Shown: positions 3,804 through 59,303 of the stretch, piece after piece
Layout of the letters: every line of letters begins with the position of its first letter
Numbering within the stretch: position 1 is the first letter of the stretch
Source of the DNA: a virus
Strand: one strand, 5' to 3'
Length of the DNA stretch: 64,000 bases
Virus record (IMG/VR): IMGVR_UViG_3300049847_000663
Span: 1 to 64,000 of that record
Notes under the pieces: generated by a model
What the model saw: the letters and a program-made list of their open reading frames with translations, nothing else
Databases searched by the model: none
What the model was told of the DNA's origin: nothing
Translations under genes and position numbers: made by a program

Positions 3804-4286
3804 TTACTGCAAAATCGATTTAGCGTAAAATGTCATAAGTCCACTATAATTAACTGACCCAATATCGTTCGATGTATATAATATCTGCCCAGAATTAGTT
3901 ATATCTAGATTCACACCCGAATAACCGTTTACATTACATTGCGTCATTGTCCAAGGATTAGATGCGTTACTATCGTAAAGAACAGTCAATGTTCCACTTT
4001 CAGAAAAACCTGAAGGATTTGAATCACTTATGCGATAAATATTATAATTAATTATAGAAGATCTAACAGCTCCGCCATCGAAAATAAGACCAGTAACATC
4101 AGAAGGTGTAGTTTGATTATTAGCTACAGTAAATGAAGTTGGGAGAATGTCTGCAGAACCTACTATACTATCTAGAACATCAGTTACTGCTGACATCCAG
4201 TCAGTAGTGTCACCTCCCCAACCGGGTGGATCTCCAGCGTCGGGGATTTCATATGGTGTATTATTAATAATAAGAGTGCGAGACAT
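3804..4286 (-). CDS. Virion protein, first gene of the fibre unit
   Basis: 160 aa, starting MSRTLIINNTPYEIPDAGDP, an N-terminus often seen in small phage tail proteins. The C-terminal half is beta-rich and resembles other fibre-associated modules. No catalytic motif is seen. It is the first gene after the conserved late-promoter motif at 4314-4336, with a leader of roughly 40 nt. Function beyond virion association is unknown. Confidence 0.65.
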   Translation of the reverse strand: MSRTLIINNTPYEIPDAGDPPGWGGDTTDWMSAVTDVLDSIVGSADILPTSFTVANNQTTPSDVTGLIFDGGAVRSSIINYNIYRISDSNPSGFSESGTLTVLYDSNASNPWTMTQCNVNGYSGVNLDITNSGQILYTSNDIGSVNYSGLMTFYAKSILQ

Positions 4287-52199: not shown

Positions 52200-52273
52200 A
52201 GCCTAGGCAGGTTTGCACATTGGGCTCCTTCAAGGCCTTAATGACCTAAGTTCGATTCTTAGCTAGGCTTCCA
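52200..52273 (+). tRNA. tRNA-like gene, anticodon UUC if read as tRNA-Glu
   Basis: 74 nt. Perfect 7-bp acceptor AGCCTAG / CTAGGCT, perfect T-arm CTAAG-TTCGATT-CTTAG and encoded CCA. The anticodon arm GGGCT-CCTTCAA-GGCCT would give UUC (Glu), but position 33 is C rather than U and the D-arm (GCA-GGTT-TGC) is very small. It may be a degenerate tRNA or a tRNA mimic. T-rich sequence follows. Confidence 0.6.
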
Positions 52274-52281
52274 TTTTTTTC

Positions 52282-52310
52282 TTGATTCTTAATAAAATAA
52301 TTGTTATTCT
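52282..52310 (+). promoter_or_regulatory. Promoter of the structured RNA
   Basis: TTGATT at 52282-52287 and TATTCT at 52305-52310, 17 nt apart. Position +1 would fall at 52317, exactly the first base of the RNA closing helix. Confidence 0.65.
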
Positions 52311-52316
52311 AATTTT

Positions 52317-52530
52317 GTAACGTGCGGCGTGGAAAGCAGTGATACAGAGTTTAAGAAACTTACTACCCCGACCAGGGCAGCCTTGTTGCCTGACTCGAGC
52401 GGGTTCTTGTAATCAGAGGTACACCGGAGACACGCCCCTGCAAGCTGGGCCAGAGCTGTCCCCTTAAATGGGAAAAGCGTCAGTAGTTATCCTGGGAGCA
52501 AGAGTCGCGTCTTGCCACGTTACGCTTTTT
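52317..52530 (+). ncRNA. Structured non-coding RNA, about 214 nt
   Basis: GC-rich island in AT-rich DNA, with no ORF. Ends pair perfectly: GTAACGTG (52317-52324) with CACGTTAC (52516-52523), then GC and TTTTT, so the closing helix also forms the terminator. A nested helix GGCGTG (52326-52331) / CACGCC (52431-52436) closes a subdomain with AGTTT-AAG-AAACT and a CCCG/CGGG hairpin. It has its own promoter at the expected place. I do not recognise it as 6S, tmRNA, RNase P or a group I intron. Confidence 0.75.
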
Positions 52531-56495: not shown

Positions 56496-59303
56496 ATGAA
56501 TGCATCAAATATGCTACTTAGCGCAATTGTAGCTTTTAGAACTTACGCGAAATTTGTTCCACATTTAGGCCGAAGAGAATCATTAGCGGAATCTATTAAT
56601 AGAAACATGAACATGCATCTAGATAGATTTCCTAAACTATCTAGTGATATTACTAAAGCATACAATTATGTTCATAATCTTAAAGTAATGCCTTCAATGC
56701 GAGCTTTACAGTTTTCGGGCGAAGCAATTTTAAAGAATCACGCAAGACAATATAACTGTTCATTTACGAATATTGATAATGTGAGAGTTTTTGGTGAAAT
56801 TCTATATTTACTTCTTTCTGGTGTTGGAGTTGGTTTTTCAGTTCAAAAACATCACACTAGAAATTTACCAAAATTAAAACAACCAAAAGAAAATGGATTT
56901 TTTTCAGTTCAAGATTCTATAATGGGTTGGGCTCAGTCTATCGATTTATTAATGGAAGCTTATTTTTATGGAAGAGTAAAGCCGCGTTTTGATTTTGGTG
57001 ATATTAGACCAAAAGGTAGTTATTTAGTTACAACGGGCGCAAAAGCTCCAGGACCTGAACCTCTAAAAAAAATGTTAGAAATGGTTGAAGAAAAATTAAA
57101 AAATGCTATCGGTAGGCAATTAAGACCTATAGAATTACACGACATTATTTGTATAATTTCCGATGCTGTATTGGCTGGAGGTATAAGAAGAGCTGCGTTA
57201 ATTTCTCTATTTGATCGAGACGATACCGAAATGCTTAAAAGTAAATCAGGTGAGTGGTGGAATAATTTTCCATGGAGAGCGAGAGCTAATAACAGCGCGG
57301 TTCTTCCAAGAAACGAAGTCTCCAAAGATGAATTTTTTGAAATATTTAAAATTTGTAAAGAATCAGGAAGCGGAGAGCCGGGTTTTAGTTGGAGTAATAA
57401 CACTGATTGGGGATTCAATCCGTGCGTTACTGGCGAAACAGAAATCTTAACTTCGGAAGGTTATCAAAGAATTGACGAATTAGTAGATCAACCTACTAAA
57501 ATATGGAACGGTTTTGAGTGGAGTGAAGTGACGCCAAAAATTACAGGTTATAATCAAGAAATCCTCACAATTAACTTTTCTGATGGAAGAACTCTAAACT
57601 GCACTCCTTATCATAAATTTCATATTTCTATTGATTATCGCGGAGGAACTAAAATAGTAGAAGCTAAAGATTTAGAGCCCGGAATGAAGTTAATTAAACA
57701 CGAGTTTCCGATAATGGATACCATGTTAGAATTAGAAGACGCTTATACCAACGGATTTGTTTCAGCTGAAGGTATGGAATTAAATAAAACTTTATATGTT
57801 TATAAACCGAAAGAAATGTGCTTAGAAAGAATACAAAATAAAAAATTAGTAAAATGGGAAGAAAACAATAATAGATATAGAGTTATTTTAAATAAAACTC
57901 CATTATCTAAAAATTTTGTACCACTTGATTATAGCGTAAATTCTAAACTGGAATGGTTATCTGGTTTGTTTGATGGTGACGGAACTGAATTAAAAGAAGG
58001 CGGATTACAATTAGTTTCGATTAATCGAGATTTTCTAACAAATTTACAAAAATTATTATCAACTTTAGGTATCCAGTGTAAAGTATTATTTGCAAATAAA
58101 GCGGGAATGAGATTAATGCCCGATGGTAAAGGTGGTAGCGCTTTTTTTCAATGTCAAAATGCGTATAGAATTTGTATTGGTGCTAAACAAATGCAAAATT
58201 TAAAATCTCTAGGATTAAAGTGCGAAAGAATGAGTTTTGAAAAAACGCCACAAAGAGACGCATCTCAGTTCGTTTCTGTTGTTGATATCACAGAAAATGG
58301 ATTTGCTGAAAAAGTATATTGTTTTAATGAGCCTAAACGCCATATGGGTATTTTTAATGGAGTATTGACTGGTCAATGTCATGAAATTGCACTGAATTCA
58401 AATCAATTTTGTAATTTAACAACAATTAATCAAACTGACATAAAAAGCGAAAAAGATTTTTTAAATCGAGTTTATCAAGCAGCTTTACTTGGTACTTTAC
58501 AAGCCAGCTATACTAATTTTGATTATCTCCGTCCATCTTGGCAGATTACAACAGAAAGAGAATCTCTCTTGGGTGTTAGTTTTACAGGAATAGCGGATAG
58601 TAAATCTATGATTAATGCTGAAATGCTTAAGAAAGCCAGTCAATTAGTTTTAGATGTAAATGAAAAATATTCTAAAAAAATTGGTATTAATTTAGCGGCT
58701 AGAACAACCACGATTAAACCCGAAGGTACGTCTAGTTGCGTTCTAGGTAGTTCAAGTGGAATTCACGCTAGACACGCGCAACACTATATTAGAAGAATTA
58801 GAATGAATAAAGATGACAGTCTCGCTGTCTATTTAAAAAACACAATCCCAAGTCTAGTTGAAGATGATATTTTTAGCTCAACTGGTGTTGTAGTGAGTAT
58901 CCCACAAGAAAGTCCAAATGGTGCTATTTTAAGAGAAAACGAAACCGCTCTTTCTTTGTTTAATAGAACTCTTTATTACAGTAGAAATTGGGTGAATCCG
59001 GGACATAGATATGGCGATAACAAACACAACGTTTCTGTTACCATTTCCGTAAAAGATAATGAGTGGGAAGATTTACGTAATCAAATGTGGGAAAATAGAG
59101 ATCTTTATTCAGGAATCAGTTTGTTGCCTTATGACGGCGGAAATTATCAACAGGCACCTTTTGAAGAGTGTTCTAAAGAAAAATATGAAGAAATGAGTAA
59201 GCAGGTAAAAGATATAGATTTAAAACAAGTTAAAGAAGAAACAGACAATACAGCCAGAGTAAAAACTGTTGCTTGTAGCGGTGGAGCTTGTGAGATTGTA
59301 TGA
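56496..59303 (+). CDS. nrdJ: Class II ribonucleotide reductase with intein
   Basis: 935-aa precursor; extein 617 aa. It matches the monomeric adenosylcobalamin-dependent ribonucleotide reductase. Cys88 (QYNCSF) and Cys639 fit the redox pair and Cys628 fits the thiyl-radical cysteine, 11 residues before Cys639 as in the Lactobacillus enzyme. Cys927 and Cys932 (CSGGAC) fit the C-terminal shuttle pair. It makes dNTPs independent of oxygen but needs host B12. The intein must be removed for activity, since it lies just before the radical Cys. Confidence 0.93.
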   Translation: MNASNMLLSAIVAFRTYAKFVPHLGRRESLAESINRNMNMHLDRFPKLSSDITKAYNYVHNLKVMPSMRALQFSGEAILKNHARQYNCSFTNIDNVRVFGEILYLLLSGVGVGFSVQKHHTRNLPKLKQPKENGFFSVQDSIMGWAQSIDLLMEAYFYGRVKPRFDFGDIRPKGSYLVTTGAKAPGPEPLKKMLEMVEEKLKNAIGRQLRPIELHDIICIISDAVLAGGIRRAALISLFDRDDTEMLKSKSGEWWNNFPWRARANNSAVLPRNEVSKDEFFEIFKICKESGSGEPGFSWSNNTDWGFNPCVTGETEILTSEGYQRIDELVDQPTKIWNGFEWSEVTPKITGYNQEILTINFSDGRTLNCTPYHKFHISIDYRGGTKIVEAKDLEPGMKLIKHEFPIMDTMLELEDAYTNGFVSAEGMELNKTLYVYKPKEMCLERIQNKKLVKWEENNNRYRVILNKTPLSKNFVPLDYSVNSKLEWLSGLFDGDGTELKEGGLQLVSINRDFLTNLQKLLSTLGIQCKVLFANKAGMRLMPDGKGGSAFFQCQNAYRICIGAKQMQNLKSLGLKCERMSFEKTPQRDASQFVSVVDITENGFAEKVYCFNEPKRHMGIFNGVLTGQCHEIALNSNQFCNLTTINQTDIKSEKDFLNRVYQAALLGTLQASYTNFDYLRPSWQITTERESLLGVSFTGIADSKSMINAEMLKKASQLVLDVNEKYSKKIGINLAARTTTIKPEGTSSCVLGSSSGIHARHAQHYIRRIRMNKDDSLAVYLKNTIPSLVEDDIFSSTGVVVSIPQESPNGAILRENETALSLFNRTLYYSRNWVNPGHRYGDNKHNVSVTISVKDNEWEDLRNQMWENRDLYSGISLLPYDGGNYQQAPFEECSKEKYEEMSKQVKDIDLKQVKEETDNTARVKTVACSGGACEIV
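57423..58376 (+). mobile_element. Intein with LAGLIDADG endonuclease in nrdJ
   Basis: 318 codons from Cys310 (CVTGETEILTSEGY) to Gln627 (MGIFNGVLTGQ), followed by Cys628. Hint block motifs are visible, including NCTPYHKFH (block B) and YCFNEPKRHMGIFNGV (blocks F/G). The LAGLIDADG motifs are GFVSAEG (degenerate) and WLSGLFDGDGTE. A C-terminal Gln instead of Asn is unusual but known in some inteins. Confidence 0.92.

Follow-up and report, generated by a model that had tools for sequence, protein, structure and literature searches.

A family of structured RNAs in tailed-phage contigs, defined by covariation and probably acting in trans

Large structured RNAs associated with phages and prophages include GOLLD and ROOL, whose function is unknown and which lie in part near tRNA genes. 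Y RNA and YrlA combine a helix that closes the ends of the molecule with a U-rich 3′ end and a tRNA-like part, and in tRNA itself the Levitt pair joins position 15, in the D-arm region, to position 48, the base before the T stem. Widespread structured RNAs maintained across many unrelated phages are uncommon, and behind each there is usually an unknown host interaction. Here we describe a conserved RNA fold whose presence in numerous unrelated contigs of tailed phages, as well as in one prophage, has been shown computationally. We put at roughly 70% the probability that it represents a discrete structured RNA gene of a new, widespread phage family that acts in trans.

The window, the whole stretch of DNA that was analysed, comprises 64,000 nucleotides of a virus record 79,820 bases long. 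A preliminary description had picked out within it a GC-rich island that lacks an open reading frame, lies beside a tRNA-like gene and folds through a closing helix, a nested helix and several hairpins. The island has 54% GC against 34% for the window, with only 18 window positions reaching 54%, and no convincing open reading frame was seen in a reading-frame check. On one side it is flanked by a small open reading frame and a gene that weakly matches a phage metalloprotease, and on the other by a dATP/dGTP diphosphohydrolase gene. The tRNA-like neighbour does fold as a degenerate tRNA-Glu(UUC) with CCA; its score with the Rfam tRNA model lies below the cut-off of 29 bits, ARAGORN recognises it in relaxed modes only, its D arm is short and it has C instead of U at position 33. 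It is unlikely to be an ordinary translating tRNA. Elsewhere in the window, at 56496–59303, a ribonucleotide reductase gene contains an intein with a LAGLIDADG-like domain.

The described helices are likewise present: the 8-bp closing helix P1 (GTAACGTG/CACGTTAC), the nested 6-bp helix GGCGTG/CACGCC (52326–52331/52431–52436) and, among the hairpins, GCAAGA-GTCGCG-TCTTGC, which is also a conserved element of the family (hairpin E, Table 1). The nested helix is P2 of the family, which in the window is longer by one pair, G52326–C52436. The folding energy of the window RNA is unexceptional (z −0.54), and its single-sequence fold ensemble gives P1 and P2 a low probability. At the level of sequence comparison, the structure is proved by covariation and not by folding energy.

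Table 1 Features of the RNA gene and its upstream region, in window coordinates
Feature	Position	Strand	Evidence or remark
Degenerate tRNA-Glu(UUC)-like gene with CCA, close upstream of the RNA gene	52200..52273	+	Rfam tRNA model, 19 bits; ARAGORN relaxed modes
Possible sigma-70 promoter TTGATT-17-TATTCT, +1 at 52317	52282..52310	+	8/12 consensus matches by inspection; weak alone
RNA gene	52317..52530	+	Conserved core 52317–52523 plus U-rich 3′ end; match to model R2
P1 5′ strand (closing helix)	52317..52324	+	Covaries in 46 homologues; both sides change in all 8 pairs
2-nt connector P1–P2	52325..52326	+	C invariant in 46/46
P2 5′ strand, pairs with 52431–52435	52327..52331	+	Both sides change in 3/5 pairs; 99.1% of cells paired
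Purine internal loop, 5′ side, GRAAG	52332..52336	+	Near-invariant; A52333 is the R and covaries with 52497
P3 5′ strand, pairs with 52421–52427 around a bulge	52337..52342	+	Covariation, RNAalifold; partly degenerate in window
Variable region B	52343..52420	+	18–78 nt across family
P3 3′ strand	52421..52427	+	Covariation, RNAalifold
Purine internal loop, 3′ side, AGA	52428..52430	+	Invariant
P2 3′ strand	52431..52435	+	Covariation in alignment
Variable region D	52436..52497	+	30–116 nt across family; last base A52497 covaries with A52333
Hairpin E (stem of 5 bp, loop AGUCGCGU of 8 nt), running straight into P1	52498..52515	+	Both sides change in all 5 pairs; loop AGU(C/A)GCG near-invariant
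P1 3′ strand	52516..52523	+	Covariation; 8/8 pairs formed in window
T5 run, probable terminator U-tail	52526..52530	+	Family enrichment 53% vs 7%

BLAST of the RNA region against 50,697 phage records gave no match, and nor did a first viral pattern derived from the window alone. Homologues were reached through the portal gene: a portal alignment led to 80 related IMG/VR contigs, and searching their DNA for the RNA returned two short co-linear matches in one relative (G036) and a single match in another (G025). The three loci share one architecture in different sequence: P1 differs in all three yet pairs in all three, the hairpin keeps its loop GUCGCG but has altered both sides of its stem, and all three have the strand GAGACAC. 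The pattern GCNAGAGTCGCGNCTNGCC was found in 34 contigs, most of which also carried P1 and the other blocks although the pattern did not require them. An independent pattern for the 5′ block, GGCGTGGRAAGCTGTGG, was found in 53; the block CCACTGGAGACACGC accompanies it in most of them, and in many the hairpin and P1 lie at a constant offset. Together, the two patterns yielded about 60 IMG/VR contigs, and 54 distinct sequences carry the motifs; member contigs range from small fragments up to 165 kb. Directly after a short member in G025 lies a GC-rich stretch of about 300 nt (L165, minus strand, ~230–520) with no obvious open reading frame, possibly another RNA.

GC-rich gaps in the relatives G013, G001 and G010, considered as counterparts of the window locus, proved mostly coding or unrelated. 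In G010 no member of the new family was found. That relative has a 174-nt GC-rich noncoding stretch between DNA polymerase I-like and deaminase-like genes (L019:1486–1659), which has no Rfam match, and a tRNA-like sequence that seems to contain an insertion and is preceded by a terminator-like hairpin (L053:16877–17168).

Covariation of the two main helices had been set as the test beforehand, and both covary strongly in the homologues, in alignment A3 and among the matches to model R1. In the 46 sequences of A3, 95.0% of cells form standard pairs, compared with 29–44% when the partners are slid, 19 of the 22 pairs change on both sides, and double-change cells number 218 as against 59.9 in shuffled data. 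The base pairs of P1, P2, P3 and E are all conserved by compensatory change. The R1 matches, mostly sequences outside the set from which that model was built, are 95.7% paired and hold 138 double changes against 37, in an alignment fitted to the model. Unguided RNAalifold on the homologues gave the same helices, with C21–G111 and U22–R110 in addition. In a set chosen only on the 5′ block and independent of the window, 95.4% of cells are paired, and P1 and E still covary. Model R2, derived from this 5′-block set without the window or the first-found homologues, matches the window at exactly the conserved core (60.1 bits, E 2.6e-11) and has no second match within it.

A scan of all column pairs by corrected mutual information placed nine proposed helix pairs at the top; the tenth pair joins columns 17 and 181, that is, the purine internal loop and the base just before hairpin E. 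Across the 46 sequences this pair is A–A in 25, G–G in 8 and G–U in 7, and none of 20,000 permutations, which ignore kinship, reached its value. New members mostly keep it when the internal loop is intact. We regard the contact as suggestive, the correlation being one that could partly reflect shared ancestry.

The family consensus runs from P1 through the dinucleotide C G to P2 (5 bp), the GRAAG/AGA internal loop (in its fuller form GGRAAG/AGA), P3 closing region B, region D, hairpin E and the P1 3′ strand. Hairpin E has 5 bp and the loop AGU(C/A)GCGN and is joined without a linker to P1, whose core is 6–7 bp (mode 7 bp) and often extended, apparently by chance. The conserved consensus amounts to about 60–70 nt in members of about 116–290 nt; regions B and D vary completely, even between the two copies of one phage (L187). 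Region D of one member (L171, minus strand, ~300–410) holds a hairpin resembling a T arm, together with a helix that matches it, which gives the impression of a degenerate tRNA lodged inside the RNA. At L213:6560–7140, the 3′ end of the family RNA and the ribosome-binding region that follows it are repeated about 530 nt downstream, past one gene and a simple-repeat stretch.

The RNA had been called unrecognised, and this still applies: Rfam gave no match at curated thresholds in the window and at permissive ones only the sub-threshold neighbouring tRNA, while the main helices covary in homologues. Rfam 15 also gave no match at the RNA in the loci of ten other members, and no paper was found with the consensus strings in a literature search that had most subscription journals and CC BY-NC papers outside its reach. 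The family is almost certainly previously undescribed, although an unnamed candidate motif could exist in the large motif lists from virus collections, and we call it categorically new as an RNA class. ARAGORN and the Rfam tRNA model recognised no cloverleaf in the RNA gene, and none of 34 members encodes CCA, with or without a discriminator, after P1, which excludes an ordinary tRNA. The idea that the window RNA contains a diverged twister (P1 GGTTCTTG/CAAGAGTC, CAAG loop) was rejected: no twister model gave a match at E up to 10, and the family conserves other pairs. RNase P RNA, tmRNA, SRP RNA, a group I intron and a cobalamin riboswitch were considered by eye and set aside, without Rfam support.

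The claim that the gene has its own promoter and terminator has statistical support across the family and is not proven for the window copy. A promoter score of at least 9/12 occurs at the expected place in 20% of the family against 1.4% of background, and four or more consecutive Ts stand right behind P1 in 26 of 49 members (53%) against 7%. Both background values come from neighbouring sequence, coding DNA among it, and the enrichment over intergenic DNA will be smaller. The candidate promoter of the window reaches only 8/12 and was not reported upstream of the RNA by a consensus promoter scan. Its T5, said to follow the closing helix directly, begins 2 nt past P1. Transcription would start at the first P1 base and end at the U-run after P1; in some phages the RNA may instead be co-transcribed with tRNAs.

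Promoter-like sequence just upstream and a U-run just after P1 would equally suit a cis-acting leader, the main rival explanation, in which the RNA is either a put-like element of general antitermination or a switch with P1 and the U-run as terminator for the downstream gene. Of 52 copies, 34 have a co-directional next gene, often 13–31 nt away, which is 34 of the 43 copies that could be classified and about two thirds of all copies; a put-like element, moreover, needs no single fixed downstream gene. Against a leader, nine copies face a convergent gene, nine have none within 400 nt, and tandem copies occur. The downstream genes are unrelated and of no common kind, which argues against a metabolite riboswitch. 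Overall, we consider a cis-acting leader improbable.

The distribution of the RNA bears on the same choice. Within the portal-related clade, it occurs in 8 of 33 viral records, at different places and twice in two of them; two copies are also found in L187, L182 and L201, and probably in L230. Among 58 loci no neighbour protein recurs generally, the largest cluster, which looks like terminase, being present at 8. A subset of copies adjoins tRNA genes: the two copies in L182 precede tRNA-Met (by 7 nt) and tRNA-Phe (by 6 nt), the L185 copy lies ~31 nt after tRNA-Thr, the L220 copy ~10 nt after tRNA-Tyr, and the window copy also belongs here; most copies are not next to tRNAs. The two L182 copies fall inside a phage tRNA cluster with a tmRNA gene (L182:1649–5209).

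In bacteria, the family is nearly absent. One copy (G086:C12:107817–108003) was found in 369 genomes of the phylum of the Bdellovibrionales MAG G073; integrase and recombination genes and tRNA-Val adjoin it, which places it in a prophage. Two further groups of 398 and 395 genomes gave no member, a soft negative with few candidates scored per genome, making one copy in 1,162 genomes across the bacterial sets. A copy is also present on contig C237 of MAG G070, to which its portal gene had led. BLAST with the window DNA against phages and plasmids, and with canonical members against phages (including cultured ones), plasmids and Escherichia coli, gave no credible match.

A constant fold combined with varying gene context, orientation and copy number leads us to regard the RNA as probably a discrete molecule acting in trans. 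Its unrelated downstream genes, varying orientation and patchy distribution within the clade suggest that it is probably an accessory RNA, and very probably it serves a job needed by many phages.

A trans-acting RNA could also be a guide, with a conserved scaffold whose variable regions pair with targets. Regions B and D would suit such a role in that they differ completely even between the copies of one phage, and other phages also have two copies. The longest antisense match of the window RNA in its own phage, however, is 12 nt, whereas shuffled sequences reach 13, and no effector gene recurs beside the family RNA, leaving a guide a distinctly poor prospect. Fainter still is the case for a new ribozyme or RNA-processing element: the near-invariance of the internal and hairpin loops amid variable insertions, the phage location and a twister ribozyme match in the related phage G013 would fit it, but the RNA ends are apparently set by promoter and U-run and not by cleavage, and no Rfam ribozyme family matches. 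Chance GC-rich intergenic sequence without function, with which the ordinary folding energy would agree, is refuted by homologues with strong compensatory change and by the R2 match to the window.

In G013, a noncoding RNA region of about 375 nt (L060:3682–4056) is apparently flanked by two twister ribozymes, one matching RF03160 below its cut-off (L060:3689–3743; 38 bits, E 9e-7) and the other fitting the twister pattern by eye (~3984–4040). The region may give rise to a phage RNA that is processed by ribozymes and is perhaps circular.

For the discrete trans-acting RNA that we favour, a tRNA-like fold of the upper half is a tentative proposal, to which we give somewhat less than even odds. 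It is drawn from the 7 + 5-bp stack without a linker, the 2-nt connector, the D-arm-like helix, the 17–181 contact and the tRNA neighbours; the lack of CCA, P1 extending beyond 7 bp in many members, the 8-nt E loop without T-loop consensus and the many copies away from tRNA genes count against it. P1 (7 bp), the connector, E (5 bp) and the 17–181 contact would then form an acceptor/T-arm stack plus elbow. The tRNA-like surface so made would be offered to a conserved host factor with a role in tRNA handling, such as a processing or cleaving enzyme, including defence nucleases. The RNA could act as a decoy, inhibitor or adaptor, with variable regions that tune it to the host. A decoy or ligand for a tRNA-handling host factor is our best guess at its role, though a doubtful one. 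We also think it unlikely that the complete picture holds, in which an RNA with a tRNA-elbow fold, itself not a tRNA, mimics the acceptor/T-arm half to bind, block or divert a host factor that handles or cleaves tRNAs, its variable domains being phage-specialised, with two divergent copies in several phages. If this picture is right, the factor bound is a conserved host factor and no phage partner gene is needed; neighbour clustering and an antisense search in the own genome of the window RNA found no partner protein or target.

Ordinary annotation misses the family because it is absent from Rfam, BLAST-negative in cultured phages, plasmids and E. coli, and scarce in the bacterial genomes searched. 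Its sharply defined consensus now opens it to searches, expression and pull-down. Should the tRNA-like reading hold, phage–host conflict would include a tRNA mimic of a new kind.

Among described RNAs, the pRNA of phi29 is also a small phage RNA closed by its own ends, but the family is patchy within phages that share a portal and has no common packaging neighbour. The put RNAs of HK022 resemble it as structured phage RNAs, often at the start of a transcript; the family differs in being a single closed domain followed by a U-run, of which some copies face convergent genes. Compared with GOLLD and ROOL, it is much smaller, unrelated in sequence and without an Rfam match. With Y RNA and YrlA it shares the closing helix, the U-rich 3′ end and a putative tRNA-like part, and it departs from them in lacking an Rfam match and, by general clustering, a widely recurring neighbour protein, and in having other conserved motifs. 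Likenesses to tRNA and the tRNA-like domain of tmRNA are a closing helix of about 7 bp stacked without a linker on a 5-bp hairpin, 2 nt connecting it to the following arm, a putative long-range contact where tRNA has the Levitt pair, and some copies next to tRNA genes. In contrast to these RNAs, the family has no CCA, and its E loop, AGU(C/A)GCGN, has 8 nt and stands where they have the T loop; the D-arm position is occupied by a long helix that a purine internal loop interrupts, a variable region replaces the anticodon arm, and the RNA usually has a putative promoter and U-run of its own.
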